Shown here: in pieces, positions 8,536-63,150 of the stretch
Numbering within the stretch: the first letter of the stretch is position 1
Layout: the number at the start of each line of letters is the position of its first letter
Source of the DNA: Lepus europaeus
Lineage: Eukaryota > Chordata > Mammalia > Lagomorpha > Leporidae
Direction of reading: 5' to 3'
DNA: 64,000 nucleotides
Assembly: GCF_033115175.1 (NCBI RefSeq)
Contig: NC_084836.1
Span: 77,652,253-77,716,252, forward strand
Translations under genes and position numbers: made by a program
The notes under the pieces: model-generated
What the model was told of the DNA's origin: nothing
Seen by the model: the letters and a program-made list of their open reading frames with translations, nothing else
The model's database searches: none

Positions 8536-9739
8536 ATAAAGGTTTGGTCCTGGCTTTTTTACTATTTTATAGCAAATTTACACATGCAGGACTCCCCGCA
8601 CCAGGGAGAATGCCCTTTATATCAAACTAGATGAAGAGGACCAGGCATTAAGCACACCAAGCAGTAGCTCACGATGCCTTGCTTAACCACACCCCCAAGG
8701 GATACAGCAGTGATAAAAATTTAGCAATGAACGAAAGTTTGACTGATTTATGCTATGATAGGATTGGTAAATTTCATGTCAGCCACTGTGGTCATAAGAT
8801 TAACCCAAATAAATAAACACTCAGTGTAAAGCGTGAATAGGTGTAAATAAAAATAAAATCAAATACTAACTAAGCTGTAAAAAGTAATAGTTATTAACAA
8901 AAATAACCAACGACAGTGATTTTACAACCTCCAGACTCACGACAGCTAAGACCCAAACTGGGATTAGATACCCCACTATGCTTAGCCCTAAACCTTAATA
9001 ATTCCATAACAACATTATTCACCAGAGAACTACAAGCCAGAGCTTAAAACTGAATGGATTGGCGGTGCTTTATACCCACCTAGAGGAGCCTGTTCTATAG
9101 TGAATAAGCCCCGATAACCCTTACCACTCTTTGCCAACTCAGCCCATATAACACAAACTTCAGGGATCCCTAAAAAGGAACAAAGTAAACTGAATTATCC
9201 TCATAAAAACGTTAGGTCAAAGTGTAGCCTATAGAGTGGAAAACAATGGGCTACATTTTCTACTACAGAACATTTACGAAAGCCCCTGTGAAATCTTAAG
9301 GCCTAAAGGAGGATTTAAAAGTAAATTAAGAATAGAAAGCTTCTCTGCTGTGGCCCAGGAGGGCAGTGGAGGATGGCCCAAGTGCTTGGGTGCCTGCACC
9401 TGCATGGGAGACCAGGAAGAAACACCTGGCTCCTGGCTTCGGCTCGGCACAGCACTGGCCATAGCGGCCTTTTAGCGGGTGAACCAAAGGAAGGAAGACC
9501 TTTCTCTTTGTCTCTTTCTCTCTCTCTCACTATCTAAAACTCTACCTGTCAAATAAAAAAAATTTAGAATAAAAAAAAAAAAAGAATAGAGACCTTAATT
9601 GAACCTGGCCATGAAGCACACACACACTGCCCATCGCCCTCCTCAAATACTGTATAAATTCTGATACATAATTACAAAATAAACCAGCATAAGAAGACTG
9701 TAACAATGTAAACATACTAGAAAATGTGCTTGGATAATT
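8536..9739 (+). pseudogene. Mitochondrial 12S rRNA copy, split by a CSINE
   Basis: Begins ATAAAGGTTTGGTCC. The conserved small-subunit motif GGGATTAGATACCCCACTAT is at about 8,960. The rRNA is interrupted at 9,337-9,591 and resumes with the 3' domain up to tRNA-Val. Only the part from 9,641 onward is duplicated in the right arm. Confidence 0.9.
9337..9591 (+). mobile_element. 5'-truncated CSINE in the 12S copy
   Basis: Starts inside the SINE body (TTCTCTGCTGTGGCCCAG) and ends with CT-rich sequence, CTACCTGTCAAAT and a poly-A run. It is flanked by AAGAATAGA at 9,328-9,336 and 9,592-9,600. It lies just outside the palindrome arm. Confidence 0.9.
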
Positions 9740-9808
9740 CATAGTGTAGCTTAACTCAAAGCACTTGGCTTCCACCCAAGATATTTCATACTTAATTGAC
9801 CACTCTGA
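9740..9808 (+). pseudogene. Mitochondrial tRNA-Val copy
   Basis: CATAGTGTAGCTTAACTCAA start and an ACTTGGCTTCCACCCAAG anticodon arm, between the 12S and 16S copies. The anticodon loop reads TTCCACC where TTACACC is usual, so the anticodon is altered. The right-arm copy differs by at least one base in this gene. Confidence 0.8.
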
Positions 9809-10222
9809 GCCAATGCTAGCCCTACATAATTAAAATAAAACTTAAATAACTTAATAAACTAAACCATTTACCTTATATTTAAAGTACAGGAGACAGAAAT
9901 TTATCTTAGGTGCTATAGAAAAAGAACCATAAGGGAAAGATGAAAGAACTATTAACAGCATAAAAAACAGAGATTATTACTCTTACCTTTTGCATAATGA
10001 ATTAGCTAGAAAATCATTAGCAAAAAGAATTGCTGTTAAAAATCCTGAAACCAGACGAGCTATCTACGAGCAGTTATAAGAAGGAACCCGTCCATGTAGC
10101 AAAATGGTGGGAAGACTTATAGAGAGATGAAAAGCCAACTGAGCCTGTTGGTAGCTGGTTGTCCAGAACAGAATTTTAGTCCAGCTTTAAATTTTTCCAA
10201 ACCAGCATCATAAACTTAATGA
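9809..10222 (+). pseudogene. Mitochondrial 16S rRNA copy, 5' part only
   Basis: Begins GCCAATGCTAGCCC after tRNA-Val and contains TGGTAGCTGGTTGTCCAGAA near 10,150, typical of large-subunit rRNA. It stops at about 10,222 and the next mitochondrial sequence is COX1, so some 4-5 kb of the mitochondrial map is missing. Confidence 0.85.
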
Positions 10223-10560
10223 ATTTTTTTTTTTGACAGGCAGAGTGGATAGTGAGAGAGAGAGACACAGAGAAAGGTCTTCCTTTTTTTTTTTTTGCCA
10301 TTGGTTCACCCTAAAATGGCCGCTGCGGCCGGCGCATCTCGCTGATCCAAAGCCAGGAGCCAGGTGCTTCTCCTGGTCTCCCATGCGGGTGCAGGGCCCA
10401 AGCACTTGGGCCATCCTCCACTGCCTTCCCGGGCCATAGCAGAGAGCTGGCCTGGAAGAGGGGCAACCGGGATAGAATCCGGCGCCCCAACCGTGACTAG
10501 AACCCAGTGTGCCAGCGCTGCAAGTCAGAGGATTAGCCTGTTAAGTCACGGCGCCGGCCA
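10223..10560 (-). mobile_element. CSINE, first of a tandem pair at the 16S/COX1 join
   Basis: Minus-strand, full-length: poly-T, GACAGGCAGAGTGGATAGTG, and the complete head ending GTCACGGCGCCGGCC. Flanked by AATGA-type sites (about 10,218 and 10,560). Mirror copy at about 61,635-61,966. Confidence 0.85.
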
Positions 10561-10884
10561 ATGATTTTTTTTTTTTTTTTACAGGCAGAGTGGACAGGTC
10601 TTCCTTTGCTGTTGGTTTACCCTCCACTGGCCGCCACAGCCAGCGTGCTGTGGCCGGTGCACCGCGCTGATCTGAAGGCAGGAGCCAGGTGCTTCTCCTG
10701 GTCTCCCATGCGGGTGCAGGGCCCAAGGACCTGGGCCATCCTCCACTGCATTCCTGGGCCACAGCAGAGAGCTGGCCTGGAAGAGGGGCAACCGGGACAG
10801 AATCCGGCGCCCCGACAGGGACTAGAACCCAGTGTGCCGGCGCCCCTAGGCAGAGGATTAGCCTATTGAGCCACGGCGCCGGTT
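10561..10884 (-). mobile_element. CSINE, second of the tandem pair
   Basis: A second minus-strand CSINE directly after the first, with its own poly-T (10,565-10,580) and head (AGCCACGGCGCCGG). It lacks most of the AG-rich stretch. It is followed by TTTTAATGAAAA, so both SINEs used nearly the same AATGA site. Mirror copy at about 61,314-61,632. Confidence 0.85.
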
Positions 10885-10887
10885 TTA

Positions 10888-11556
<669 letters not shown>

Positions 11557-11692
11557 ATAGGAAGGAACCGAACCCCTAAGACTGGTTTCAAGCCAGTCAC
11601 ATAAGCATTATGACTTTTTCTATAAGTTATTGCTAAAATTATCACATAACTTTGTCAAAGTTAATTCATAGGTTAAACCCCTATATATCTTT
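11557..11692. pseudogene. tRNA-Ser(UCN) (minus) and tRNA-Asp (plus) copies
   Basis: The tRNA-Ser complement (GGAAGGAACCGAACCCCTAA ... CTTTTTCT) lies at about 11,557-11,625. Plus-strand tRNA-Asp, with the GTC anticodon in TTTGTCAAAG, lies at about 11,626-11,692. The pair sits between COX1 and COX2 as in mammalian mitochondria. Confidence 0.8.
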
Positions 11693-12374
11693 ATGGCATA
11701 TCCGTTTCAACTAGGTTTCCACGACACCTCATCCCCCATTATAGAGGAGCTACTTAACTTTCATGATCACAAGTTCATCATAGTTTTCCTAATTAGCTCC
11801 CTAGTCCTCTACATTATCTCACTAATACTTACTAAAAGACTTACTCACACAAGCATAATAGATGCACAAGAAGTAGAAACCATCTGAACTATTCTCCCAG
11901 ATATTATCCTAATTTTAATTGCACTTCCTTCCCTGTAAATTCTATACATAATAGACAAAATTAACAATCCATCCCTGACAGTAAAAACTATGGGTAACCA
12001 ATGATATTGAAGCTATGAATGTACTGACTATGAAGACCTAAAGTTCGACTCATACATGATCCCAACATCTGACTTAAATCCAGGAGACCTGCGATTGTTA
12101 GAGGTAATTGAGTTGTTCTTCCAATAGAGCTGCCAATTGGAAAATTAAATTCATCAGAAGATGTACTACATTCATGGACTGTACCTTCACTAGGCTTAAA
12201 AAGAGATTCCATCCCTGGACGCCTTAACCAAGCTACTTTAATCTCAACTTGCCCAGGGCTTTTCTACGGCCAATGCTCAGAAATCTGTGCTCGAAAGGCT
12301 CCAAGCACAGTTTCAATCCAACTGTTCTTGAAATAGTTCCACTACAACACTTCCAAAGCTGGTCACTATCTATA
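11693..12374 (+). pseudogene. COX2 copy
   Basis: Opens [20 protein letters not shown] at 11,693, the cytochrome oxidase II N-terminus, and continues to the copper-site region near 12,270 (GQCSEIC-type sequence). The nuclear code stops it after 64 codons at UGA; other changes are also present. Mirror copy at about 59,823-60,504. Confidence 0.9.
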
Positions 12375-12383
12375 ATCTAAATT

Positions 12384-12454
12384 CATTATGAAGCTAAACT
12401 AGCACTAGCCTTTTAAGCTAGAGAATGAGAGCTGACTAACCCTCTCCATAATGA
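12384..12454 (+). pseudogene. Mitochondrial tRNA-Lys copy
   Basis: CATTATGAAGCTAA at the start, a CCTTTTAAGCTAGAG anticodon arm with TTT, and an acceptor stem closing at TCCATAATGA. It lies between the COX2 and ATP8 copies. Confidence 0.8.
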
Positions 12455-12455
12455 A

Positions 12456-12947
12456 ATGCCACAACTTGACACATCCACATGACTAATCACCAGTGTCGCT
12501 ATAATTCTCACACTATTTGCCTTCATTCAACTTAAATTTCACAGATATGTTTATCCAATAATCCCTGTATTAAAAACATTTGAATCCATTTCTCCCCCAT
12601 CCCCATGAGAAATAAAATGAACGAAAATATATTCTCCTTTCTGTTACCCCTACAATAATAGGACTACCAATTGTAATCCTATTCATTATATTTCCAACCT
12701 TGTTATTTCCCGCCCCCACTCGCTTAATAAACAATCGATTAGTTTCAGTTCAACAACCATTAGCTCAACTAGTTCTAAAACAAATAATAACAATACACTC
12801 TGCCAAAGGGCAAACTTCATTCCTAATAGTAATTTCTTTAATTATATTATTCTTATCCTCCTCACTGTCTTAGAATTTGCTGTCACCCTAATTCAAGCCT
12901 ATGTATTTGCCCTTCTAGTCAGCCTATATTTACATGATAACACCTAA
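12456..12947 (+). pseudogene. ATP8 and ATP6 copies, ATP6 internally deleted
   Basis: ATP8 starts ATGCCACAACTTGACACATC at 12,456 and overlaps ATP6 (ATGAACGAAAATATATTC near 12,620). ATP6 runs about 330 bp instead of about 680 bp. Sequence jumps near 12,812 from CCAAAGGGCAAAC to the C-terminal region ending CATGATAACACCTAA. The right-arm copy also carries a ~22-bp templated insertion. Confidence 0.85.
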
Positions 12948-13730
12948 GGACACACCAAACCCATGTGTATCATATAGTAAATCCCAGCCCATGATCACTT
13001 ACAGGAGTGCTATCCACCCTTCTCATAACATCAGGCTTCGCCATATGATTCCATTTTAATTCATCCACACTTCCCCTTATTGGCCTACTAACAAATACAC
13101 TCACTATCTATCAATGATGAGGAGACACTCTACAAGAAGGCACATTCCAAGGCCACCATACACCTATTGCTCAAAAAGGCCTATGGTATGGAAGAAACCT
13201 GTTTATTTTATCAGAAGTATTCTTTTTCGCAGGCTTCTTTTGAGCTTTTTATCACTCTAGCCTAGCCCCGATTCCAAAACTGGGAGGTTGCTGACCTCAC
13301 ACAGGGATTAATCCCTTAAACCCACTTGAAGTACCCCTACTTACTACTTTAGTCCTACTAGCCTCGGGAGTATCAATGACTTGGGCTCACCATAGTCTAA
13401 TAGAAGGAAATTGTAAAAACAAACAGCACGCCTTAGCCATTACCATCCTCTTAGGTATCTACTTCACTCTTCTTCAACCATCTGAATACTACAAAACATC
13501 CTTTACTATTTCAGATGGGGTTTATGGATGAACATTTTTCATAGCTACAGGATTTCATGGCCCTCATGGGATTATTGCATCTACCTTCCTCACAGTTTGC
13601 CTTCTACGACAATTTAATTTCCATGTTACATCAAATCATCATTTTGGCTTTGAAGCAGTCGCATGATATTGATATTTTGTTGATGTAGTTTGATTATTCT
13701 TCTATGTATCAATTTATTGATGAGGCTCAT
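12948..13730 (+). pseudogene. COX3 copy, near full length
   Basis: Begins near ACACACCAAACCCATG (the start codon has become AGG) and reads as cytochrome oxidase III to TATTGATGAGGCTCAT. It keeps [19 protein letters not shown] and [13 protein letters not shown] sequence in the mitochondrial code. At least four bases differ from the mirror copy (for example near 13,143, 13,388 and 13,430). Confidence 0.9.
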
Positions 13731-13799
13731 ACTCTTTTAGCATTAATTAGTACAACTGGCTTCCAATCAGTTAGTTTTGGTTTACCCCAAGAAAGAGTA
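13731..13799 (+). pseudogene. Mitochondrial tRNA-Gly copy
   Basis: ACTCTTTTAGCATTAATTAG start and a CTTCCAATCAG anticodon arm with TCC, between COX3 and ND3 as in mammalian mitochondria. Confidence 0.8.
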
Positions 13800-14157
13800 A
13801 TTAATCTAATTTCAGTTTTATTAATTAATGTATCCATTGCACTAATTTTAGTGATGACTGCATTTTGACTCCCCCAACTAAATATGTACTCAGAAAAATC
13901 GAGCCCCTACGAATGCGAATGTGGATTTGACCCTATAGGATCAGCATGCCCACCATTCTCAATAAAACTTTTCCTAGCAGCCATTACATTCATATTGTTT
14001 GACCTCGAAATTGCTTTCCTTCTTCCTCTCCCATGAGCAGCACAATTCAACAACCTCAACCTAGTTCTCATCACAGCACTCATACTAATATCAATGCTAG
14101 CTTTAGGCTTAGCTTACGAATGAAAACAAAAAGGATTAGAATGAATTGAATATGATA
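13800..14157 (+). pseudogene. ND3 copy
   Basis: Reads in the mitochondrial code as NADH dehydrogenase subunit 3: SSPYECGFDP near 13,900, an FDLEIA-type motif near 14,000, and ending with a KQKGLEWIE-type C-terminus. Complete or nearly so. It is followed by the split tRNA-Arg copy. Confidence 0.9.
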
Positions 14158-14785
14158 GTTAGTTTTCTTAAAATAAATGATATACTCGGCTCCCCACCCA
14201 GGAGACAGCAGCCTGAGACATCGCCCCATGCCAGCAAAGAGTACCTCATCGCCCTATGTCAACAGGTAGTAGCTCTAAAGACAGATCATCGTCCCTCGAC
14301 CCCTCCCAGACTTTTGGGACTAATATAATCCCATACAAATCCTGCTTTATAAAAAACAAAAGGGGGGGATGTTAGGAGACTGGTGCAGTTTTAGCCAGGT
14401 GGCCCCATGGCCCAGCTACCTGAGCCAGGCTCCAATCCCATCCTAATGGGATTCTCTGCTCCTGCTTCAATGCCCACCCTCAGGTAAAGTTTTAAAAGGG
14501 ATTGTTCCTGAACACGTGCTTTCTAGGCTCTTGATCCTTCTCTCCTGCGCTCTCTTGGCCTCTCTTGGCTTCTCTCCTCCTCTCATCTCTATTGTCTCTC
14601 CTCTGTCTCTCTCCCTCTCTTATAGTCTCTTTCTCTCTTTTTCCTTCACTGCCCCTTCACTCTGGCCTGTTGGGTGTTCCCCAACAAACCTTTTCCCTTA
14701 AAAAACAAAACAAAACAAAAATAAAAATAAAAATAAAATAAATGATTCAGACTCATTAGACTGTGGTAATTCCATCATTATCAAA
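14158..14785 (+). pseudogene. tRNA-Arg copy split by a retroviral retrocopy
   Basis: The 5' part (AGTTAGTTTTCTTAAAATAA) ends at 14,181. The rest, starting at the repeated AAATAAATGAT and continuing TCAGACTCATTAGACTGTGG, lies at 14,736-14,785. The gap is filled by the insertion described next. Confidence 0.8.
14182..14735 (+). mobile_element. Retrocopy of an endogenous retrovirus 3' end (pre-LTR segment, U3-R, poly-A)
   Basis: About 190 bp of internal sequence is followed by a polypurine tract (AAAAGGGGGGGA) and an LTR-like start TGTTAGGAGA at 14,370. A CT-rich region follows, ending near 14,700 at an A-rich tail. Identical 11-bp AAATAAATGAT sites flank it (14,171-14,181 and 14,736-14,746). 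A tail plus target-site duplications of this length indicate L1-type retrotransposition of a viral transcript, not proviral integration. No viral protein is intact and the retroviral class is unknown. The mirror copy at about 57,444-57,997 appears identical. Confidence 0.75.
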
Positions 14786-15060
14786 ATGCATTCAATCCAT
14801 ATTAACATTTTCCTAGCATTTATCTTAGCACTTTCAGGAATGCGAATCTATGGATCTCAATATCTTCTCCTTTATGCCTTGAAGGAATAATACTATCACT
14901 TCTTATCTTAATTACATTAACAGCCCTAAATGCCCCTTTACACTTTCCTTTATGTTTCCAATTATCCTCTTAGTATTACAGCCTGTAAAGCTGCTGTTGG
15001 GTTAGCATGACTAGTTACAGTCTCTAATACTTATGGCATCTAGATTATGTTTAAAACCTT
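14786..15060 (+). pseudogene. ND4L copy
   Basis: ATGCATTCAATCCATATT at 14,786 begins the ND4L reading. Small indels follow (near 14,873 and 14,945). It overlaps the ND4 start as in mitochondria. Base 14,852 differs from the mirror copy (G here, C in the sense of the right arm). Confidence 0.8.
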
Positions 15061-16777
15061 AACCTCCTACAATGCTAACAATTATTATTCCTACAATTAT
15101 ACTTATCCCTACTACAAGATGGTCTAAGAATTCTATAATTTGAATTAACATGACCGCAAATAGTCTCTTAATTAGCCTGGCTGCCCTTTTTCTATTCAAT
15201 CAACCAAACGACACCAATCTAAGCTTCTCAACATTTTTTTTCAGACGCCCTATCTGCTCTTCTCCTCATAAGTACAGTTTGACTCCTTCCCTAATAATCT
15301 TAGTGAGTCAACATCATCTAGACAAAGAAACCTTAGTACAAAAGAAAACATATATTTCCCTTTTAAACTCTTTACAGGCATTTTTAGTTATAACATTTTC
15401 AGCCACAGAACTTATCTTATTTTACACTTTATTTGAAGCAACACTAATCCCCACACTAATTATCATCACACAATGAGGTAACAAAACAGAACGACTTAAT
15501 GCAGGAACTTACTTCTTATTCTGTACACTTCTAGGATCTCTGACACTTTTTGTTTTTTTGACAGATAGAGTTTTAGACAGTGAGAGAAAGAGAGACAGAG
15601 AGACAGAGAGAAAGGTCTTCCTTTCATTGGTTCACTACCAAAATGGCTTCCACAGCTGGCGCTGCACCAATCCGAAGCCAGAAGCCAGGTGTGTTTCCTC
15701 CTGGTCTCCCATGCGGGTGCAGGGCCCAAGCACTTGGGCCATCCTCCACTGCCCTCCCAGGCCACAGCAGAGAGCTGGACTGGAAGAGGAGCACTGGGAC
15801 TAGAAACCAGCACCCATATGGGATGCTGGCACCACCTGCAGAAGATTAACATAGTGAGCAAGGGCACTGGCCCCTCTCTGCCACTTTTATTTGCTTTAAT
15901 CTATAGCCAAAACTTTACCAGATCTCTTTACTTTTTACTTATACAATTCTTAAATGAAGCACTGGCACCATCAAAATCTAACTCACTAATATGAGTAGCA
16001 TGCATAATAGCATTTTTAGTCAAAATACCCCTTTATGGGCTTGATCTCCAAAACCCAGGTTTTAGCCCCTATTGCAGGCTCAATGGTCCTAGCAGCCATC
16101 TTACTAAAACTAGGCGGCTATGGCCTATAAGTTTTACCGTTGTGTTTAACCCAATCACATAATATATAGCCTACCCATTCCTTATACTCTCACTTTGAGG
16201 TATAATTATAACTAGCTCTATCTGCTTATGACAAACAGATCTAAAATCACTCACTGCTTATCCTTCAGTTAGTCATATAGCCTTAGCAATTGTCGCAATT
16301 TTAATCCAAACTCCATGAAGTCTACAGGAGCCACCGCTCTAATAATTGCCCATGGCCTAAACTCCTCTATATTATTCTGCTTAGCTAATTCTACATATGA
16401 ACCTATTCATGGTCGAACTATACTATTACCACAAGGTCTTCAAACTGTCTTGCCATTAACAGCTGCATGATGACTACTTGCTAGCCTCACTAATTTAGCT
16501 TTACCACCTACTACTATCTTACAAGGGGAACTTTTTGTTATAATAGCATCCTTTTCATGATCTAATCTATTATTTTAATAGGCACTAACACTAATTGGTA
16601 CTAATTACAGCACTTTATTCCCTTTACCTATTATCTATGACCCAAAGAGGAAAATTTACATACCATACTAATAATATTTCACCAACATTCACCTGAGAAA
16701 ATACTCTAATAATGCCTCACCTAACTCCACTCCTTCTCCTATCTATTAACCCAAAAATTATTCTAGGCCAATATTCT
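15048..16777 (+). pseudogene. ND4 copy, split by a CSINE
   Basis: ND4 reading from ATG at 15,048, with frame breaks. It is interrupted at 15,551-15,874 and resumes (IYSQNFTRSLYFLLIQF-type sequence near 15,905) to the end before tRNA-His. The 3' third also exists as a third, more diverged copy at 62,541-63,150. Confidence 0.9.
15551..15874 (-). mobile_element. CSINE in ND4
   Basis: Minus-strand CSINE: short poly-T, GACAGATAGAGTTTTAGACAG, an AG-rich stretch, and a head ending AAGGGCACTGGCCCC. TCTCTGACACTTT-like sites flank it (about 15,537 and 15,875, one mismatch). More diverged than the pair at 10.2-10.9 kb, so probably older. Confidence 0.85.
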
Positions 16778-16976
16778 GTGAATATAGTTTTAAAAAAGGA
16801 TTAGATTGTGAATCTAATAATAGAAGATTAACTCTCCTTATTTACCAAGAATGTTTGCAAGAAATGCTAACTCACGCACCCATGCTTAACTTCATGGCTC
16901 TCTCAACTTTTAAAGGACAGAAGTAATCCGTTGGCCTTAGGAGCCAAAAAATTGGTGCAACTCCAAATAAAAGGAA
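16778..16976 (+). pseudogene. tRNA-His, tRNA-Ser(AGY), tRNA-Leu(CUN) copies
   Basis: tRNA-His (about 16,778-16,846, anticodon in GATTGTGAATC), tRNA-Ser(AGY) (about 16,849-16,906) and tRNA-Leu(CUN) (about 16,907-16,976, anticodon in GGCCTTAGGAGCC) lie between ND4 and ND5 in mitochondrial order. Confidence 0.85.
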
Positions 16977-17853
16977 CAAACTTATTCTCCACTTTAGTAG
17001 CTCTCTCAATCATCATTCTAGTTCTACCTATTCTAGCCTTGTTCACTAACATTTTAATAACATTAGCTACCTCAATTTTGTAAAAACGTCAGTATCACAA
17101 TGCATTTGTTATTAGCCTCATTCCAACCCTAATTTCTATTAGAACAAACCAAGAAACAATAATTTACAACTGGCACTGAATGGCCATTCAAACTCTTAAG
17201 CTACCATCTAGTTTTAAACTAGATTATTTCTCTTTACTATTTACCCCAACTGCACGTTTCGTGACACGGTGACATGGTCAATTACAGAATTTTCCATATG
17301 ATACATATACTCAGACCCCAAAATTAAACAATTCTTCAAATACTTATTAATATTTGTTATGACTATATTAATTCTAGTTACAGCAAATAACCTTTTCCAA
17401 CTATTTATTGGATGGGAGGGCGTAGGAATTATATCATTCCTCTTAACCGGACGATTACATGGACAGACAGATGCCAACGCCAGGGCCCTACAAGCAATTT
17501 TATATAATCGCTTTAGAGATAATCAGCTTTATTATAGCTATAGCCTCATTTGCCATTAACCTCAGTACATGGGAATTCCAGCAAATATTTATTACAGAGC
17601 ACAACGTTATGATTCTCCCAGTAACTGGACTTATCTTAGCTGCCACAGGAAAATCCACACAATTGGGATTACACCCATGACTGCCCTGAGCAATAGAAAG
17701 CGCCACACCAGTTTCAGACTTACTTCTTTCAAGCACTACAGTAGTAGCAGACCATCTGTTAGAAAACAGCAGAACAGCCCAAACACTAATCTTATGCCTA
17801 GGAGCATTTACGACCCTTTTCACAGCCCCTTGTGCTCTCATCCAGAAAACAGG
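16977..17853 (+). pseudogene. ND5 copy, 5' half
   Basis: Starts at the ND5 N-terminus with the start codon changed to ACA. It contains [17 protein letters not shown] (17,398-17,450) and ends abruptly near CTCATCCAG at about 17,850. It holds in-frame stops and a shift near 17,520. This is the downstream NUMT boundary, and no CSINE lies at the junction. Confidence 0.9.
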
Positions 17854-18180
17854 TGTCACCAAAAACACACACTTTCCCATTACAGACACTCTGTACGTAT
17901 TAAAAGAAAAGCTCAGAACATACAGAAAAATGGCTGAAAGTATTCCAGGTAGGACCACACCACTCTATGACCTTTGACAATTCTTCCCTCCCAATTTCTC
18001 CAGACCACAAAACAAGCTCAGGTTGTACAAGGCTCACAGACATGGCCAACAATGCCATACCCCAGAGACGCATTTCATGAGTTTTACCAGAAAGAGATTT
18101 CGAGAGCGATTTCACTACTTCTACATTTCACCTAGGCTTGCTCAAGAACCAAGGGCATCACGCACAAGCCCTGCAGTGTT
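17854..18180. other. Unique sequence between NUMT and CpG-rich block
   Basis: No repeat recognised. On the minus strand it lies downstream of the candidate splice donor, so it would be intron 1 of the putative transcript. The NUMT would then have inserted into that intron. Confidence 0.35.
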
Positions 18181-18680
18181 TCTAACTCTCCCCTGCGGTA
18201 CTCGGCGGCCTGGCCTCTGTCCATCAGGACCCCTGGACGCAGCCACAGCCGCTGGTTTGGAAAGGCCGTGTTAAGCAGAGAGCAGCTTCTGCATCTGACA
18301 CACGCAGGCCTCCCGACAACGGCCGCCACATCCTCCCGAGGGCCACGGGCTTCTCAGCCGGCCTTCTCCCTGCCCACACCAGCGTCCAGCGGCGCCCAGC
18401 CCACCTGCCTGGCCCATGGCCCACTCACCGCTCCGCCGCCGTCGTCCCGCGGGGCTCCGCTCCCTTCCTGGCCACTCTGCTCTCTTCCCTTCGCAGAGAC
18501 CTCGGTCCGGTCCCTCTTCCGGGGCTGCTGAGGTGTCCACCAGCTGGGACACCGCACTGGTTCTGGGTCCAGCGTGGGTGAGGCCCTAAGGCCCGAGGAC
18601 CAGGCCGCGCTTGCGCAGTAGAGCCGCCTCCCCTGCTCGGCCCTAGAACTGCCAATGGACTCCCCGGCCTGCCAACACCT
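18180..18680 (-). promoter_or_regulatory. CpG-rich promoter-like block, left copy
   Basis: GC-rich with many CpG in otherwise AT-rich DNA. Read on the minus strand it has an inverted CCAAT box (CCATTGG, about 18,652-18,658) and an NRF-1-like TGCGCAAGCGCG (about 18,606-18,617). A GC-rich transcribed segment follows, ending in a GTGAGT donor. This layout is typical of a TATA-less housekeeping promoter. Transcription would run toward lower coordinates, away from the palindrome centre. Confidence 0.55.
18429..18600 (-). other. Candidate untranslated first exon, left copy
   Basis: The 3' edge is set by GGCGGAGCG|GTGAGT at 18,429/18,428 on the minus strand; the 5' edge is only approximate. No convincing start codon context or protein domain is present. 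No downstream exon was found before the NUMT, so the gene remains unknown. Confidence 0.35.
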
Positions 18681-18814
18681 GCCAGGCTCCTCGCCAGACC
18701 ACAAGCGCACACCAAGGCCCATGGTCCCTGGACAGCACCCAGGAGGACTGGAGCAGCCATTTGCAAATGCTGCCAAACGGCCAAGTGCAGCATCACCCTC
18801 TAGACTAACCACAC

Positions 18815-19165
18815 ATGCACACACAGGAATACAGCTACCCATGCACACACACAACATGCCACGTCACACACACACACAGGCACGCACAGGCACAACACAT
18901 GCAGAGACTCAGACACCACACATACACTGCCCCACAGACTCAGAGACACCACATATACACACATGCACACACACACTCACCCATGTACTGACACACAGAC
19001 ACACCAACATGAACACATGCACTGACACACACCCTCCCACACACAGACACCACACAGACACACAGGCACACACAGGCACTCATGCTCACAACCCACACAC
19101 ACTCACAGACATCACACATACCCACATGCACACATGCACAGACACATACCACAACATGCACACAC
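18815..19165. repeat. Degenerate CA-rich repeat
   Basis: About 350 bp of interrupted CACACA, ACACAGGCAC and ACACATGC units. It produces Thr/His-rich and Cys/Val-rich open frames on the two strands that are not genes. Mirror copy at about 53,015-53,365. Confidence 0.9.
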
Positions 19166-21492: not shown

Positions 21493-21593
21493 TTTTCCAT
21501 GATCTTTTTGAAGTACCCTCATATACCTGATAAGGGCCTAGTGTCCAGAATAGGTAAAGAATTCATATGACTTAACAATAAGCAGACAACCAG

Positions 21594-22220: not shown

Positions 22221-22224
22221 ATCT

Positions 22225-23760: not shown

Positions 23761-23892
23761 AAAGCTGTATAGTTCTGCATACATTCCTCTGGACTTAGTG
23801 TTAAAGGGATCATATAAATAAGATCAAATGTCTGGTAATAACAATAGATAGAATTAAAAAGCAGAGAAAGTTCCAACATTTTCAAATGTAGC

Positions 23893-24772: not shown

Positions 24773-24799
24773 TTTTTAAAGTTTTTTTATTAAACTTTT

Positions 24800-47398: not shown

Positions 47399-47406
47399 CT
47401 TTAAAA

Positions 47407-52320: not shown

Positions 52321-53014
52321 AACTTAACAAAGCACTATAAACCCCTGTTTGATCGGCCACTGCTGAATCAACACATTACCTCCTGTTCAAATGATGGCTG
52401 TTATAGTAGTGTGCAGTTTTGTACTGCTGTGTGGATAGTGGACAGCTAAGTCCTTACTCTGAAGCATCGAGTTTTCCCCCAGAAACATTGTCATGAAGGA
52501 ATAGAAACTTGATGCATTTCCTAAGTACCCCTTTAGGAATACCATATCTTCCCACAATCCCACCCACACTCTGCCCCACACTCCCACCCCTCTTCCTCCT
52601 CCCTCTCCTCTTCCCATTCCTATTCTTTACTAAGTTCTATTTCAATTAAGTGTATGTACATAGGGTTAATTCTCTACTAAGTAAAGTGTTCAACAGATTG
52701 CATGGGGAAAAAAACAAACTGTTCCTTCACAGTCAACCAAGGGCTGTTCAAAGACATGCTTGTCACAGTGTGGATTTCAGTTCTATAGATGGCCTTCTCA
52801 GGGCTCTATAAGTTATCCCAGATCAGGGAAAACAAAGGGTGTATCCTCTTCACCCTGTCCCAAGAAACAACCAAACCGAAACAAAAGCTATAAAACTATT
52901 GCCCGACCGAGAATCTAGGGACCCTCAGGTAATTAAAGACGGATCATATTCAGAATGGTAGTTTATTGATGAAGTTGATTCAATACAATCAACGAACACA
53001 TGTAGGCTTTCCAA
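52321..53014. other. Mirror of the unassigned/L1 3' UTR-like block
   Basis: Complement of about 19,166-19,860. Nothing further is recognised in it. Confidence 0.45.
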
Positions 53015-53365
53015 GTGTGTGCATGTTGTGGTATGTGTCTGTGCATGTGTGCATGTGGGTATGTGTGATGTCTGTGAGTGTGTGTGGGTTGTGAGCATGA
53101 GTGCCTGTGTGTGCCTGTGTGTCTGTGTGGTGTCTGTGTGTGGGAGGGTGTGTGTCAGTGCATGTGTTCATGTTGGTGTGTCTGTGTGTCAGTACATGGG
53201 TGAGTGTGTGTGTGCATGTGTGTATATGTGGTGTCTCTGAGTCTGTGGGGCAGTGTATGTGTGGTGTCTGAGTCTCTGCATGTGTTGTGCCTGTGCGTGC
53301 CTGTGTGTGTGTGTGACGTGGCATGTTGTGTGTGTGCATGGGTAGCTGTATTCCTGTGTGTGCAT
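53015..53365. repeat. Degenerate TG-rich repeat, right copy
   Basis: Complement of the CA-rich repeat at 18,815-19,165. It directly precedes the promoter-like block, within about 160 bp of the CCAAT box. Confidence 0.9.
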
Positions 53366-53499
53366 GTGTGGTTAGTCTAGAGGGTGATGCTGCACTTGGC
53401 CGTTTGGCAGCATTTGCAAATGGCTGCTCCAGTCCTCCTGGGTGCTGTCCAGGGACCATGGGCCTTGGTGTGCGCTTGTGGTCTGGCGAGGAGCCTGGC

Positions 53500-54000
53500 A
53501 GGTGTTGGCAGGCCGGGGAGTCCATTGGCAGTTCTAGGGCCGAGCAGGGGAGGCGGCTCTACTGCGCAAGCGCGGCCTGGTCCTCGGGCCTTAGGGCCTC
53601 ACCCACGCTGGACCCAGAACCAGTGCGGTGTCCCAGCTGGTGGACACCTCAGCAGCCCCGGAAGAGGGACCGGACCGAGGTCTCTGCGAAGGGAAGAGAG
53701 CAGAGTGGCCAGGAAGGGAGCGGAGCCCCGCGGGACGACGGCGGCGGAGCGGTGAGTGGGCCATGGGCCAGGCAGGTGGGCTGGGCGCCGCTGGACGCTG
53801 GTGTGGGCAGGGAGAAGGCCGGCTGAGAAGCCCGTGGCCCTCGGGAGGATGTGGCGGCCGTTGTCGGGAGGCCTGCGTGTGTCAGATGCAGAAGCTGCTC
53901 TCTGCTTAACACGGCCTTTCCAAACCAGCGGCTGTGGCTGCGTCCAGGGGTCCTGATGGACAGAGGCCAGGCCGCCGAGTACCGCAGGGGAGAGTTAGAA
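53500..54000 (+). promoter_or_regulatory. CpG-rich promoter-like block, right copy
   Basis: CCATTGG (inverted CCAAT box) at 53,522-53,528 and NRF-1-like TGCGCAAGCGCG at 53,563-53,574, followed by CpG-dense sequence and the donor GTGAGT at 53,752-53,757. It would direct transcription toward higher coordinates, outward from the palindrome, as the left copy does in the opposite direction. Confidence 0.55.
53580..53751 (+). other. Candidate untranslated first exon, right copy
   Basis: Ends at GGCGGAGCG|GTGAGT. The start is approximate, placed just downstream of the NRF-1-like site. Overlapping open frames on both strands are GC-rich artefacts. If the right arm is a copied fragment, this promoter may no longer be linked to its downstream exons. 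Confidence 0.35.
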
Positions 54001-54326
54001 ACACTGCAGGGCTTGTGCGTGATGCCCTTGGTTCTTGAGCAAGCCTAGGTGAAATGTAGAAGTAGTGAAATCGCTCTCGAAATCTCTTTCTGGTAAAACT
54101 CATGAAATGCGTCTCTGGGGTATGGCATTGTTGGCCATGTCTGTGAGCCTTGTACAACCTGAGCTTGTTTTGTGGTCTGGAGAAATTGGGAGGGAAGAAT
54201 TGTCAAAGGTCATAGAGTGGTGTGGTCCTACCTGGAATACTTTCAGCCATTTTTCTGTATGTTCTGAGCTTTTCTTTTAATACGTACAGAGTGTCTGTAA
54301 TGGGAAAGTGTGTGTTTTTGGTGACA
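54001..54326. other. Mirror of the unique stretch next to ND5
   Basis: Complement of 17,854-18,180. Putative intron 1 sequence of the promoter-like block; nothing else recognised. Confidence 0.35.
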
Positions 54327-55203
54327 CCTGTTTTCTGGATGAGAGCACAAGGGGCTGTGAAAAGGGTCGTAAATGCTCCTAGGCATAAGATTAGTGTTTG
54401 GGCTGTTCTGCTGTTTTCTAACAGATGGTCTGCTACTACTGTAGTGCTTGAAAGAAGTAAGTCTGAAACTGGTGTGGCGCTTTCTATTGCTCAGGGCAGT
54501 CATGGGTGTAATCCCAATTGTGTGGATTTTCCTGTGGCAGCTAAGATAAGTCCAGTTACTGGGAGAATCATAACGTTGTGCTCTGTAATAAATATTTGCT
54601 GGAATTCCCATGTACTGAGGTTAATGGCAAATGAGGCTATAGCTATAATAAAGCTGATTATCTCTAAAGCGATTATATAAAATTGCTTGTAGGGCCCTGG
54701 CGTTGGCATCTGTCTGTCCATGTAATCGTCCGGTTAAGAGGAATGATATAATTCCTACGCCCTCCCATCCAATAAATAGTTGGAAAAGGTTATTTGCTGT
54801 AACTAGAATTAATATAGTCATAACAAATATTAATAAGTATTTGAAGAATTGTTTAATTTTGGGGTCTGAGTATATGTATCATATGGAAAATTCTGTAATT
54901 GACCATGTCACCGTGTCACGAAACGTGCAGTTGGGGTAAATAGTAAAGAGAAATAATCTAGTTTAAAACTAGATGGTAGCTTAAGAGTTTGAATGGCCAT
55001 TCAGTGCCAGTTGTAAATTATTGTTTCTTGGTTTGTTCTAATAGAAATTAGGGTTGGAATGAGGCTAATAACAAATGCATTGTGATACTGACGTTTTTAC
55101 AAAATTGAGGTAGCTAATGTTATTAAAATGTTAGTGAACAAGGCTAGAATAGGTAGAACTAGAATGATGATTGAGAGAGCTACTAAAGTGGAGAATAAGT
55201 TTG
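54327..55203 (-). pseudogene. ND5 copy, right arm
   Basis: Complement of 16,977-17,853; no difference noticed. Confidence 0.9.
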
Positions 55204-55402
55204 TTCCTTTTATTTGGAGTTGCACCAATTTTTTGGCTCCTAAGGCCAACGGATTACTTCTGTCCTTTAAAAGTTGAGAGAGCCATGAAGTTAAGCATGG
55301 GTGCGTGAGTTAGCATTTCTTGCAAACATTCTTGGTAAATAAGGAGAGTTAATCTTCTATTATTAGATTCACAATCTAATCCTTTTTTAAAACTATATTC
55401 AC
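55204..55402 (-). pseudogene. tRNA-Leu(CUN), tRNA-Ser(AGY), tRNA-His copies, right arm
   Basis: Complement of 16,778-16,976, in the same order. Confidence 0.85.
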
Positions 55403-57132
55403 AGAATATTGGCCTAGAATAATTTTTGGGTTAATAGATAGGAGAAGGAGTGGAGTTAGGTGAGGCATTATTAGAGTATTTTCTCAGGTGAATGTTGGTG
55501 AAATATTATTAGTATGGTATGTAAATTTTCCTCTTTGGGTCATAGATAATAGGTAAAGGGAATAAAGTGCTGTAATTAGTACCAATTAGTGTTAGTGCCT
55601 ATTAAAATAATAGATTAGATCATGAAAAGGATGCTATTATAACAAAAAGTTCCCCTTGTAAGATAGTAGTAGGTGGTAAAGCTAAATTAGTGAGGCTAGC
55701 AAGTAGTCATCATGCAGCTGTTAATGGCAAGACAGTTTGAAGACCTTGTGGTAATAGTATAGTTCGACCATGAATAGGTTCATATGTAGAATTAGCTAAG
55801 CAGAATAATATAGAGGAGTTTAGGCCATGGGCAATTATTAGAGCGGTGGCTCCTGTAGACTTCATGGAGTTTGGATTAAAATTGCGACAATTGCTAAGGC
55901 TATATGACTAACTGAAGGATAAGCAGTGAGTGATTTTAGATCTGTTTGTCATAAGCAGATAGAGCTAGTTATAATTATACCTCAAAGTGAGAGTATAAGG
56001 AATGGGTAGGCTATATATTATGTGATTGGGTTAAACACAACGGTAAAACTTATAGGCCATAGCCGCCTAGTTTTAGTAAGATGGCTGCTAGGACCATTGA
56101 GCCTGCAATAGGGGCTAAAACCTGGGTTTTGGAGATCAAGCCCATAAAGGGGTATTTTGACTAAAAATGCTATTATGCATGCTACTCATATTAGTGAGTT
56201 AGATTTTGATGGTGCCAGTGCTTCATTTAAGAATTGTATAAGTAAAAAGTAAAGAGATCTGGTAAAGTTTTGGCTATAGATTAAAGCAAATAAAAGTGGC
56301 AGAGAGGGGCCAGTGCCCTTGCTCACTATGTTAATCTTCTGCAGGTGGTGCCAGCATCCCATATGGGTGCTGGTTTCTAGTCCCAGTGCTCCTCTTCCAG
56401 TCCAGCTCTCTGCTGTGGCCTGGGAGGGCAGTGGAGGATGGCCCAAGTGCTTGGGCCCTGCACCCGCATGGGAGACCAGGAGGAAACACACCTGGCTTCT
56501 GGCTTCGGATTGGTGCAGCGCCAGCTGTGGAAGCCATTTTGGTAGTGAACCAATGAAAGGAAGACCTTTCTCTCTGTCTCTCTGTCTCTCTTTCTCTCAC
56601 TGTCTAAAACTCTATCTGTCAAAAAAACAAAAAGTGTCAGAGATCCTAGAAGTGTACAGAATAAGAAGTAAGTTCCTGCATTAAGTCGTTCTGTTTTGTT
56701 ACCTCATTGTGTGATGATAATTAGTGTGGGGATTAGTGTTGCTTCAAATAAAGTGTAAAATAAGATAAGTTCTGTGGCTGAAAATGTTATAACTAAAAAT
56801 GCCTGTAAAGAGTTTAAAAGGGAAATATATGTTTTCTTTTGTACTAAGGTTTCTTTGTCTAGATGATGTTGACTCACTAAGATTATTAGGGAAGGAGTCA
56901 AACTGTACTTATGAGGAGAAGAGCAGATAGGGCGTCTGAAAAAAAATGTTGAGAAGCTTAGATTGGTGTCGTTTGGTTGATTGAATAGAAAAAGGGCAGC
57001 CAGGCTAATTAAGAGACTATTTGCGGTCATGTTAATTCAAATTATAGAATTCTTAGACCATCTTGTAGTAGGGATAAGTATAATTGTAGGAATAATAATT
57101 GTTAGCATTGTAGGAGGTTAAGGTTTTGAACA
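55403..57132 (-). pseudogene. ND4 copy, right arm, split by a CSINE
   Basis: Complement of 15,048-16,777. The CSINE lies at about 56,306-56,629 (plus). One base differs near 57,128 (mirror of 15,052). Confidence 0.9.
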
Positions 57133-57394
57133 TAATCTAGATGCCATAAGTATTAGAGACTGTAACTAGTCATGCTAACCCAACAGCAGCTTTACAGGCT
57201 GTAATACTAAGAGGATAATTGGAAACATAAAGGAAAGTGTAAAGGGGCATTTAGGGCTGTTAATGTAATTAAGATAAGAAGTGATAGTATTATTCCTTCA
57301 AGGCATAAAGGAGAAGATATTGAGATCGATAGATTCGCATTCCTGAAAGTGCTAAGATAAATGCTAGGAAAATGTTAATATGGATTGAATGCAT
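57120..57394 (-). pseudogene. ND4L copy, right arm
   Basis: Complement of 14,786-15,060. It carries TCGATC where the left arm has TGGATC (sense orientation). Confidence 0.8.
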
Positions 57395-57443
57395 TTTGAT
57401 AATGATGGAATTACCACAGTCTAATGAGTCTGAATCATTTATT

Positions 57444-57997
57444 TTATTTTTATTTTTATTTTTGTTTTGTTTTGTTTTTTAAGGGAAAAGGTTTGTTGGG
57501 GAACACCCAACAGGCCAGAGTGAAGGGGCAGTGAAGGAAAAAGAGAGAAAGAGACTATAAGAGAGGGAGAGAGACAGAGGAGAGACAATAGAGATGAGAG
57601 GAGGAGAGAAGCCAAGAGAGGCCAAGAGAGCGCAGGAGAGAAGGATCAAGAGCCTAGAAAGCACGTGTTCAGGAACAATCCCTTTTAAAACTTTACCTGA
57701 GGGTGGGCATTGAAGCAGGAGCAGAGAATCCCATTAGGATGGGATTGGAGCCTGGCTCAGGTAGCTGGGCCATGGGCCACCTGGCTAAAACTGCACCAGT
57801 CTCCTAACATCCCCCCCTTTTGTTTTTTATAAAGCAGGATTTGTATGGGATTATATTAGTCCCAAAAGTCTGGGAGGGGTCGAGGGACGATGATCTGTCT
57901 TTAGAGCTACTACCTGTTGACATAGGGCGATGAGGTACTCTTTGCTGGCATGGGGCGATGTCTCAGGCTGCTGTCTCCTGGGTGGGGAGCCGAGTAT
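57444..57997 (-). mobile_element. Retroviral 3'-end retrocopy, right arm
   Basis: Complement of 14,182-14,735, with the same flanking AAATAAATGAT sites and poly-A tail inside tRNA-Arg. It was present before the arm duplication. Non-coding. Confidence 0.75.
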
Positions 57998-58021
57998 ATC
58001 ATTTATTTTAAGAAAACTAAC

Positions 58022-59231
58022 TATCATATTCAATTCATTCTAATCCTTTTTGTTTTCATTCGTAAGCTAAGCCTAAAGCTAGCATTGATATTAGTATGAG
58101 TGCTGTGATGAGAACTAGGTTGAGGTTGTTGAATTGTGCTGCTCATGGGAGAGGAAGAAGGAAAGCAATTTCGAGGTCAAACAATATGAATGTAATGGCT
58201 GCTAGGAAAAGTTTTATTGAGAATGGTGGGCATGCTGATCCTATAGGGTCAAATCCACATTCGCATTCGTAGGGGCTCGATTTTTCTGAGTACATATTTA
58301 GTTGGGGGAGTCAAAATGCAGTCATCACTAAAATTAGTGCAATGGATACATTAATTAATAAAACTGAAATTAGATTAATTACTCTTTCTTGGGGTAAACC
58401 AAAACTAACTGATTGGAAGCCAGTTGTACTAATTAATGCTAAAAGAGTATGAGCCTCATCAATAAATTGATACATAGAAGAATAATCAAACTACATCAAC
58501 AAAATATCAATATCATGCGACTGCTTCAAAGCCAAAATGATGATTTGATGTAACATGGAAATTAAATTGTCGTAGAAGGCAAACTGTGAGGAAGGTAGAT
58601 GCAATAATCCCATGAGGGCCATGAAATCCTGTAGCTATGAAAAATGTTCATCCATAAACCCCATCTGAAATAGTAAAGGATGTTTTGTAGTATTCAGATG
58701 GTTGAAGAAGAGTGAAGTAGATACCTAAGAGGATGGTAATGGCTAAGGCTTGCTGTTTGTTTTTACAATTTCCTTCTATTAGACTATGGTAAGCCCAAGT
58801 CATTGATACTCCCGAGGCTAGTAGGACTAAAGTAGTAAGTAGGGGTACTTCAAGTGGGTTTAAGGGATTAATCCCTGTGTGAGGTCAGCAACCTCCCAGT
58901 TTTGGAATCGGGGCTAGGCTAGAGTGATAAAAAGCTCAAAAGAAGCCTGCGAAAAAGAATACTTCTGATAAAATAAACAGGTTTCTTCCATACCATAGGC
59001 CTTTTTGAGCAATAGGTGTATGGTGGCCTTGGAATATGCCTTCTTGTAGAGTGTCTCCTCATCATTGATAGATAGTGAGTGTATTTGTTAGTAGGCCAAT
59101 AAGGGGAAGTGTGGATGAATTAAAATGGAATCATATGGCGAAGCCTGATGTTATGAGAAGGGTGGATAGCACTCCTGTAAGTGATCATGGGCTGGGATTT
59201 ACTATATGATACACATGGGTGGTGTGTCCTT
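58022..59231 (-). pseudogene. ND3, tRNA-Gly and COX3 copies, right arm
   Basis: ND3 at about 58,022-58,379, tRNA-Gly at about 58,380-58,448, COX3 at about 58,449-59,231. COX3 differs from the left arm at several bases (for example near 58,749, 58,791 and 59,037). Confidence 0.88.
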
Positions 59232-59741
59232 AGGTGTTATCATGTAAATATAGGCTGACTAGAAGGGCAAATACATAGGCTTGAATTAGGGTGACAGCAA
59301 ATTCTAAGACAGTGAGGAGGATAAGAATAATATAATTAAAGAAATTACTATTAGGAATGAAGTTTGCCCTTTGGCAGAGTGTATTGTTATTATTTGTTTT
59401 AGAACTAGTTGAGCTAATGGTTGTTGAACTGAAACTAATCGATTGTTTATTAAGCGAGTGGGGGCGGGAAATAAATAGGATTACAATTGGTAGTCCTAAG
59501 GTTGGAAATATAATGAATAGGATTACAATTGGTAGTCCTATTATTGTAGGGGTAACAGAAAGGAGAATATATTTTCGTTCATTTATATCTCAAGGGGATG
59601 GGGAGAAATGGATTCAAATGTTTTTAATACAGGGATTATTGGATAAACATATCTGTGAAATTTAAGTTGAATGAAGGCAAATAGTGTGAGAATTATAGCG
59701 ATACTGGTGATTAGTCATGTGGATGTGTCAAGTTGTGGCAT
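59232..59741 (-). pseudogene. ATP6/ATP8 copies, right arm, with a templated insertion
   Basis: Complement of 12,456-12,947, with the same internal ATP6 deletion. A 25-bp segment (starting AATAGGATTACAATTGG) occurs twice, at about 59,473-59,498 and 59,516-59,540; the left arm has it once. Confidence 0.85.
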
Positions 59742-59742
59742 T

Positions 59743-60504
59743 TCATTGTGGAGAGGGTTAGTCAGCTCTCATTCTCTAGCTTAAAAGGCTAGTGCTAGTT
59801 TAGCTTCATAATGAATTTAGATTATAGATAGTGACCAGCTTTGGAAGTGTTGTAGTGGAACTATTTCAAGAACAGTTGGATTGAAACTGTGGTTGGAGCC
59901 TTTCGAGCACAGATTTCTGAGCATTGGCCGTAGAAAAGCCCTGGGCGAGTTGAGATTAAAGTAGCTTGGTTAAGGCGTCCAGGGATGGAATCTGTTTTTA
60001 GGCCTAGTGAAGGTACAGTCCATGAATGTAGTACATCTTCTGATGAATTTAATTTTCCAATTGGCAGCTCTATTGGAAGAACAACTCGATTACCTCTAAC
60101 AATCGCAGGTCTCCTGGATTTAAGTCAGATGTTGGGATCATGTATGAGTCGAACTTTAGGTCTTCATAGTCAGTACATTCATAGCTTCAATATCATTGGT
60201 TACCCATAGTTTTTACTGTCAGGGATGGATTGTTAATTTTGTCTATTATGTATAGAATTTACAGGGAAGGAAGTGCAATTAAAATTAGGATAATATCTGG
60301 GAGAATAGTTCAGATGGTTTCTACTTCTTGTGCATCTATTATGCTTGTGTGAGTAAGTCTTTTAGTAAGTATTAGTGAGATAATGTAGAGGACTAGGGAG
60401 CTAATTAGGAAAACAATGATGAACTTGTGATCATGAAAGTTAAGTAGCTCCTCTATAATAGGGGATGAGGTGTCGTGGAAACCTAGTTGAAACGGATATG
60501 CCAT
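59743..60504 (-). pseudogene. tRNA-Lys and COX2 copies, right arm
   Basis: tRNA-Lys at about 59,743-59,813 and COX2 at 59,823-60,504 (opening [14 protein letters not shown] on minus). Several substitutions relative to the left copy lie near 59,988-60,090. Confidence 0.88.
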
Positions 60505-61309
<805 letters not shown>

Positions 61310-61313
61310 TAAA

Positions 61314-61966
61314 GCTGGCGCCGTGGCTCAATAGGCTAATCCTCTGCCTAGGGGCGCCGGCACACCGGGTTCTAGTCCCTGTTGGGGCGCCGGATTCTGT
61401 CCCGGTTGCCCCTCTTCCAGGCCAGCTCTCTGCTGTGGCCCAGGAATGCGGTGGAGGATGGCCCAGGTCCTTGGGCCCTGCACCCGCATGGGAGACCAGG
61501 AGAAGCACCTGGCTCCTGCCTTCAGATCAGCGCGGTGCACCGGCCACAGCACGCTGGCTGTGGCGGCCAGTGGAGGGTAAACCAACAGCAAAGGAAGACC
61601 TGTCCACTCTGCTTGTAAAAAAAAAAAATTCATTGGCCGGCGCCGTGACTTAACAGGCTAATCCTCTGACTTGCAGCGCTGGCACACTGGGTTCTAGTCA
61701 CGGTTGGGGCGCCGGATTCTATCCCGGTTGCCCCTCTTCCAGGCCAGCTCTCTGCTATGGCCCGGGAAGGCAGTGGAGGATGGCCCAAGTGCTTGGGCCC
61801 TGCACCCGCATGGGAGACCAGGAGAAGCACCTGGCTCCTGGCTTTGGATCAGCGAGATGCGCCGGCCACAGCGGCCATTTTAGGGTGAACCAACGGCAAA
61901 AAAAAAGGAAGACCTTTCTCTCTGTCTCTCTCTCTCACTATCCACTCTGCCTGTCAAAAAAAAAAT
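61314..61966 (+). mobile_element. Tandem CSINE pair, right arm
   Basis: CSINE one at about 61,314-61,632 (head GCTGGCGCCGTGGCTCAATA), CSINE two at about 61,635-61,966 (head GGCCGGCGCCGTGACTTAAC). They are the mirror of 10,223-10,884. Poly-A lengths and a few bases differ between arms. Confidence 0.85.
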
Positions 61967-62540
61967 TCATTAAGTTTATGATGCTGGTTTGGAAAAATTT
62001 AAAGCTGAACTAAAATTCTGTTCTGGACAACCAGCTACCAACAGGCTCAGTTGGCTTTTCATCTCTAAGTCTTCCCACCATTTTGCTACATGGACGGGTT
62101 CCTTCTTATAACTGCTCGTAGATAGCTCGTCTGGTTTCAGGATTTTTAACAGCAATTCTTTTTGCTAATGATTTTCGAGCTAATTCATTATGCAAAAGGT
62201 AAGAGTAATATTCTCTGCTTTTTTATGTTGTTAATAGTTCTTTCATCTTTCCCTTATGGTTCTTTTTCTATAGCACCTAAGATAAATTTCTGTCTCCTGT
62301 ACTTTAAATATAAGGTAAATGGTTTAGTTTATTAAGTTATTTAAGTTTTATTTTAATTATGTAGGGCTAGCATTGGCTCAGAGTGGTCAATTAAGTATGA
62401 AATCTCTTGGGTGGAAGCCAAGTGCTTTGAGTTAAGCTACACTATGAATTATCCAAGCACATTTTCTAGTATGTTTACATTGTTACAGTCTTCTTATGCT
62501 GGTTTATTTTGTAATTATGTATCAGAATTTATACAGTATT

Positions 62541-63150
62541 TGAGGCATTATTAGAGTATTTTCTTGGGTGAATGTTGGTGAAATATTATTAGTATGATAT
62601 GTAAATTTTCCTCTTTGGGTCGAAGATAATAGGTAAAGAGAACAAAGTGCTGTAATTAGTACCAATTAGTGTTAGTGCCTATTAAAATAATAATAAGATT
62701 GGATCATGAAAAGGATGCTATTATAACAAAAAGTTCCCCTTGTGAGATAGTAGTAGGTGGTAAAGCTAAATTAGTGAGGCTAGCAAGTAGTCATCATGCA
62801 GCTGTTAATGGCAAGACAGTTTGAAGACCTTGTGGTAATAGTATAGTTCGGCCATGAATAGGTTCATAAGTAGAATTAGCTAAGCAGAATAATATAGAGG
62901 AGCTTAGGCCATGGGCAATTATTAGAGCGGTGGCTCCTATAAACTTCCTGGAGTTTGGATTAAAATTGCGACAATTACTAAGGCTATATGACTAACTGAA
63001 GGATAAGCAGTGAGTGATTTTAGATCTGTTTGTCGCAAGCAGATATTGCTAGTTATAAATATGCCTCAAAGTGAGAGTATAAGGAATGGGTAGGCTATAT
63101 ATTCTGTGATTGGGTTAAGCACGATGGTAACACTTATAGGCCTTAGCTGC
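62541..63150 (-). pseudogene. Separate ND4 NUMT fragment in the right flank
   Basis: Matches the ND4 3' part at about 55,466-56,075 in the same orientation, with visible substitutions and a small indel (AATAATAATAAG versus AATAATAG). It begins at the TGAGG shared with 12S and ends near 63,150, where L1 3' UTR follows. It is outside the palindrome and has no counterpart on the left side. Confidence 0.9.

Follow-up and report, generated by a model that had tools for sequence, protein, structure and literature searches.

How a large palindrome with nearly identical arms came into being, and whether those arms have since been kept alike, is the question raised by a stretch of 64,000 nucleotides of Lepus europaeus (contig NC_084836.1, assembly GCF_033115175.1, positions 77,652,253 to 77,716,252; hereafter the window, in whose coordinates all positions are given). 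Self-BLAST of the window, the self-alignment for which an earlier note made from the sequence had called, returned the inverted arms as a single large match in inverse orientation between 9641-32062 and 62545-40114, with 99.604% identity over 22,449 alignment columns (45 mismatches and 44 gap columns). The arms are 22,422 bp (left) and 22,432 bp (right) long, and an inverted match of this size and identity is not expected by chance; set against a threshold of two inverted arms of at least 8 kb and at least 99% identity, the values found are 22.4 kb and 99.6%. The inverted, near-identical arms of the earlier note are thus confirmed, with some of its dimensions corrected, since the left arm extends to 32,062 instead of 31.9 kb and the spacer measures 8,051 bp and not 8.4 kb. 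Added here are the non-uniform distribution of the differences between the arms, the presence of a nuclear mitochondrial pseudogene (NUMT) and of a long interspersed element 1 (L1) inside them, and an older NUMT fragment that adjoins the right arm. With a probability of about 0.5, we read the locus as a real nuclear inverted segmental duplication that was seeded by two facing L1 elements, end-joined within the mitochondrial 12S rRNA gene of the NUMT, and later converted in its core.

The first line of evidence comes from the inner junction, where the inner 7.3 kb of each arm is an L1 and the inner boundary of the palindrome is the 5′ end of that element. On the left side, a short interspersed element (SINE) has its A-tail against the start of the L1 (L1a) and its own 5′ end against a 17-bp direct repeat, the perfect copy of which lies at the 3′ side of L1a (24756 and 32412); when 3,000 pairs of stretches, each of about 40 bases, were drawn at random, the longest word in common averaged 5.1 and reached 17 or more in one pair. 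Since no target-site duplication of its own was seen for the SINE, SINE and L1a would represent one chimeric insertion, formed by a template jump of the reverse transcriptase. The situation of the right-arm L1 is different: the 17-mer occurs once more in the window, at 47424, on the 3′ side of this element, and is absent from its 5′ side, where no target-site duplication was found and where the element borders on spacer DNA that contains a truncated, partly inverted L1 piece (L1c). Between the 3′ flank of the right-arm L1, which starts at 47408, and the DNA directly 5′ of the element, no shared word exceeds 7 bp; for the sequence preceding L1c, the maximum is 6 bp. The flanks of the right-arm L1, therefore, seem to derive from two places, the mark of a recombination between L1 elements, and both features expected of an inverted L1–L1 recombination, a junction at L1 homology and unmatched flanks, were observed, with the duplication present at the 3′ side and lacking at the 5′ side. 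For L1c itself, the longest exact word shared by the flanks was 5 bp, so a target-site duplication of its own was not established. In support of the L1-seeded account, the end of the right arm coincides with the L1 5′ end, the place of which is marked on the left side by the adjoining SINE. Because the arm homology stops at the L1 start, the right side would already have held its own L1 (L1b), facing L1a, and we infer that L1b was a separate element and the source of the first 0.5 kb or so of the right-arm L1.

The second line of evidence is provided by the outer junction. In each arm, the outer 8.3 kb consists of NUMT sequence with SINEs, and the start of the left arm falls within the 12S gene, identified by Rfam at 8532-9745 and interrupted by a SINE. 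On the left side, Rfam finds 12S unbroken across the point equivalent to the outer right junction, and for this reason the left arm is taken as the template and the right arm as the copy. On the right side, read on the minus strand, the right-arm 12S is preceded by a piece of an older ND4 pseudogene copy (ND4′). ND4′ has diverged from the arm ND4 by 5-6%, and the frame changes at the same Pfam profile positions, 195-199, in both, which points to one nuclear ancestor, argues against ND4′ as an independent mitochondrial insertion and indicates that the NUMT was duplicated after its insertion; farther along, 4 bp are missing from the arm copy only. The 31 mismatches between ND4′ and the arm ND4 favor no single codon position (6, 15, and 10 in the frame of 16273, a rough count in a frame broken by indels). 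Outside both arms, no NUMT piece besides ND4′ was detected in the window, the remaining matches being SINE-sized.

The third line of evidence is the uneven distribution of the differences between the arms. After realignment, 30 transitions and 15 transversions, 45 substitutions in all, were counted over 22,405 gap-free columns, together with 13 indel events. These differences define an outer zone, a core, and an inner zone at the L1 5′ end (Table 1). The largest gap free of substitutions spans 16,510 bp, compared with a maximum of 6,317 bp in 100,000 uniform redistributions of the 45 substitutions, none of which reached the observed value. The longest exact runs between the arms, of 13,929 and 2,580 bp, are divided by a single 1-base indel beside a T run, and the core includes a CA-rich block of 301 bp that is identical in both arms; in the outer zone, the T runs of the SINEs differ in length between the arms. 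The outer zone is itself heterogeneous, with 31 substitutions in 9641-12702 (3,062 bp) and five in 12703-15052 (2,350 bp; Fisher P = 0.0003), and as a whole (36/5,412) it is less diverged than the inner zone (9/501; Fisher P = 0.012). At assumed substitution rates of 2-3e-9 per site and year, the absence of substitutions would place the arm cores as a single sequence less than about 30-45 thousand years ago (95% bound), and the outer zone would correspond to 1.1-1.7 million years. A stretch of 22 bp in the ATP6 region is present in two copies in the right arm (59475-59496) and in one in the left arm (12703).

Table 1. Coordinates of the palindrome, its zones, and the elements in and around it
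Feature	Position	Strand	Remarks
Left arm	9641..32062	+	Self-BLAST; 99.6% to reversed right arm
Right arm (inverted copy)	40114..62545	-	Self-BLAST
Spacer	32063..40113		8,051 bp, with SINEs and an L1 piece; self-BLAST
Outer zone, left arm	9641..15052	+	36 substitutions in 5,412 bp
Core	15053..31561	+	No substitution over 16,509 bp; a single 1-base indel at 28982
Inner zone, left arm, at L1 5′ end	31562..32062	+	9 substitutions in 501 bp
L1a	24773..32062	-	7,290 bp (assumed to be full-length), with ORF1 open (353 amino acids) and ORF2 broken
Target-site duplication, L1a 3′ side	24756..24772	+	17 bp
Target-site duplication, 5′ side beyond SINE	32412..32428	+
SINE fused to L1a 5′ end	32069..32411	-	Within the same target-site duplication
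Right-arm L1	40114..47407	+	9 substitutions in first 501 bp; remainder as L1a save one indel
L1c, truncated L1 3′ piece	39046..40095	+	First half inverted; ends about 20 bp before right-arm L1
NUMT	8470..17915	+	Mitochondrial order, frame-shifted; Rfam, Pfam, and PDB matches; ends by position and reading
ND4′, older ND4 pseudogene copy	62541..63160	-	94.4% to arm ND4 16104-16719
Outer right junction, ND4′ to 12S	62541..62545		5-bp microhomology, read directly
CpG-island-like block	18151..18650		200-bp windows with GC 0.64-0.73 and observed/expected CpG 0.56-0.82; CA-rich repeat next

The history of the locus that these observations support best is the following. The NUMT would have been inserted first, and an older partial duplication of it would have given rise to ND4′. 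The SINE and L1 insertions would have followed, among them L1a on the left and L1b on the right, both full-length and with their 5′ ends facing each other about 8 kb apart. A broken end of L1b may then have invaded the first 0.5-3 kb of L1a, and copying outward, in a manner resembling break-induced replication, would have proceeded through unique DNA and the NUMT to the middle of 12S (9641), where the new end would have been joined to the older ND4 pseudogene copy by means of the 5-bp microhomology. Arm-to-arm gene conversion would later have overwritten about 16.5 kb of the arms, leaving unconverted the outer 5.4 kb, of which 12.7-15 kb was perhaps partly converted earlier, and the innermost 0.5 kb.

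Several points weigh against this history. The 5′ end of L1a is set by the abutting SINE and not by a reference L1, and neither the 3′ end of L1b nor its duplication is visible in the window. The divergence of the inner zone is not different from that of the outermost 1,243 bp (15 substitutions; Fisher P = 0.37), and the inner zone may equally be an unconverted arm edge, in which case L1b need not be a separate element. When the flank includes the end of the L1, an 18-bp match appears between the last bases of the right-arm L1 and position 40078, which we read as the L1 tail common to the right-arm L1 and L1c. Regarding conversion, the core differs only at a single base next to a run of T, possibly through an error of sequencing, and a tract of 16.5 kb is long, as the usual meiotic conversion tracts are shorter. 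Moreover, the zoned differences are as expected from the arm-to-arm conversion put forward in the earlier note, although a single very recent act of copying, or an assembler that merged the cores, would yield the same pattern.

An origin of the palindrome in the assembly, by duplication of the core of one arm, by merging of the consensus of both arms or, in the extreme case of the whole structure, by a misjoin of two haplotypes, is considered unlikely. The 16.5-kb stretch that is identical save one base exceeds many read lengths, and the 0.67% divergence of the outer zone could match the heterozygosity of leporids. Nevertheless, the window contains no N, the left flank, the right flank, and the spacer are mutually distinct apart from repeats, the differences in the inner and outer zones are rich in transitions, and the 22-bp duplication is found in one arm only. 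The overlap of 5 bp at the outer right junction would, in addition, be below what an overlap assembler needs; this and the transition-rich differences of the outer zones make an artefact involving the whole palindrome look unlikely, whereas a merging of the identical core by the assembler is possible. A fold-back read with a missed adapter is rejected, as it would leave no 8-kb spacer and would not account for two different outer flanks.

In a rather improbable alternative, the whole right arm was copied from L1a outward in one recent event, with a template switch near 13-15 kb to a second template diverged by about 1%, either the homologous chromosome or another NUMT-bearing copy, so that no conversion would be needed. 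The absence of substitutions in 16,509 bp, interrupted by one indel, and the presence nearby of a further NUMT copy, ND4′, agree with such an event; the intermediate rate at 12703-15052, on the contrary, looks graded and not like the product of one switch (P = 0.0003), and ND4′, at 5-6% divergence, is therefore not the 1% template. Similarly improbable is microhomology-mediated template switching at both ends, followed by conversion that homogenized the core, in which L1 recombination would have no part and the position of the inner breakpoint at the L1 5′ end would be due to chance or to the fragility of A-rich retroelement ends. The 5-bp microhomology of the outer junction and the resemblance of the inner-zone divergence to that of the outermost 1.2 kb speak for this mechanism; against it, no more than about 10 bp separate the inner breakpoint from the L1 5′ end, a coincidence estimated at about 1 in 1,000 for a random position over 22 kb. 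A larger former palindrome, trimmed by L1c, is rejected, because the spacer halves and the outer flanks, compared for inverted homology, share only SINE-sized or shorter matches (between the spacer halves, 72.8% over 228 bp at best, which is SINE-sized, and otherwise less than 50 bp).

The assignment of the outer arm to a NUMT relies on the order tRNA, 12S, tRNA, a presumed part of 16S, two SINEs (about 10224-10882), COX1 from mid-gene, COX2, ATP8, ATP6, COX3, ND3, ND4L, ND4, tRNAs, and the 5′ part of ND5. Rfam identified the 12S rRNA and the tRNAs, the latter being named by position and reading, and Pfam identified COX1 (from profile position 266), COX2, ATP8, COX3, ND3, and ND4; ND5 is below the curated Pfam cut-off (E 0.0005) and was also assigned by reading, and the COX3 and ND4 pieces match PDB chains, which we take to be mammalian. 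Position and reading were the basis for 16S, ATP6, ND4L, the upstream control region, and the ends of the NUMT; for 16S, a search of 8200-11000 against the Rfam large-subunit rRNA models was negative even with E values of up to 1 admitted. The rRNA, tRNA, and protein genes found here follow the mitochondrial order and carry disabling changes, with repeated shifts of the reading frame, as in a NUMT; their location is nuclear, since they are flanked by L1, SINEs, and a TMEM243-type retrocopy. At the two SINEs (10224-10893), where the presumed early 16S passes to mid-COX1, the mitochondrial order has a gap of several kilobases. Beside the tRNA cluster of the NUMT, a match to SHMOOSE, a mitochondrial micropeptide family, was obtained at 16880-16954 (E 1.7e-7, above cut-off), as expected from a region of mitochondrial origin. 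In a search of viral contigs for relatives of COX3, one stretch fitted a pattern, and none encoded a relative.

Regarding gene content, the promoter-like block of the earlier note corresponds to a short CpG-island-like stretch at about 18.15-18.65 kb, with which no gene was recognized; the frames in this GC-rich block, 18354-18857 and 18655-19191, have no Pfam or PDB match. The candidate exons that the same note placed in the spacer found no support, as no Pfam domain was detected in the six frames of 32414-39046, a scan insensitive to short exons and blind to non-coding ones, and these candidates were rejected. The six frames of the arm at 17900-24780 also returned no Pfam domain, with the same insensitivity to short exons, and the other arm pieces scanned gave L1 and mitochondrial domains only, in a search that non-coding transcripts, short exons, and genes without Pfam domains would escape. 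The tRNA-Val predicted by ARAGORN at 21921 and 50171 has no Rfam counterpart and is taken as false, and an old L1 fragment lies in the arm between the CA repeat and L1a; the SINEs and L1 elements resemble those of lagomorphs. In the left flank (1-8300), where the Pfam scan covered five of the six frames, DUF2678 (PF10856), presumably the family of the gene TMEM243, matches at 696-977 on the minus strand (E 1.2e-36) in frame-shifted, stop-bearing surroundings, which suggests a processed pseudogene of TMEM243 type.

In mammalian sex chromosomes, the arms of large palindromes are kept alike by arm-to-arm gene conversion, and these palindromes usually carry genes. The palindrome described here resembles them in its arms of more than 8 kb with more than 99% identity, its unduplicated spacer, and an interior that is most identical while the edges differ more. 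It departs from them in that no gene was recognized in the scanned parts, in its one sharply bounded identical core, and in its diverged zones, the outer of which is much longer than the inner one. The spacer, the inner junction at homologous L1s, and the outer microhomology recall, in turn, the inverted duplications produced by fold-back or break-induced replication and LINE–LINE non-allelic recombination, which have been described mainly in human disease rearrangements; here, unlike in those cases, the product would be a standing genomic structure that subsequently underwent conversion. With NUMTs in segmental duplications, the locus shares colinear, frame-shifted mitochondrial genes, SINE insertions, and duplication after insertion, and it differs from other NUMT duplications in that the NUMT supplies both partners of the outer junction and that three copies of a part of ND4 are present, in the two arms and in ND4′.

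In summary, if real, the locus records the birth of a palindrome, with the inner junction, at an unmatched L1, and the outer junction, at a 5-bp microhomology, both still visible, and the mitochondrial genes in the diverged zone, of known ancestral state, could be used to orient the changes. If the arms prove to be gene-free, the effects of arm conversion and of selection on arm genes could also be told apart at this locus. Tentatively, it may be regarded as a gene-poor palindrome, born of L1 elements and joined within a NUMT, with about 16.5 kb kept alike by conversion, at a site of earlier NUMT duplication. Such a gene-poor converting palindrome, if true, would demonstrate that duplication can recur and evolution be concerted in the absence of selection on arm genes, and it would offer a NUMT-calibrated clock for conversion.

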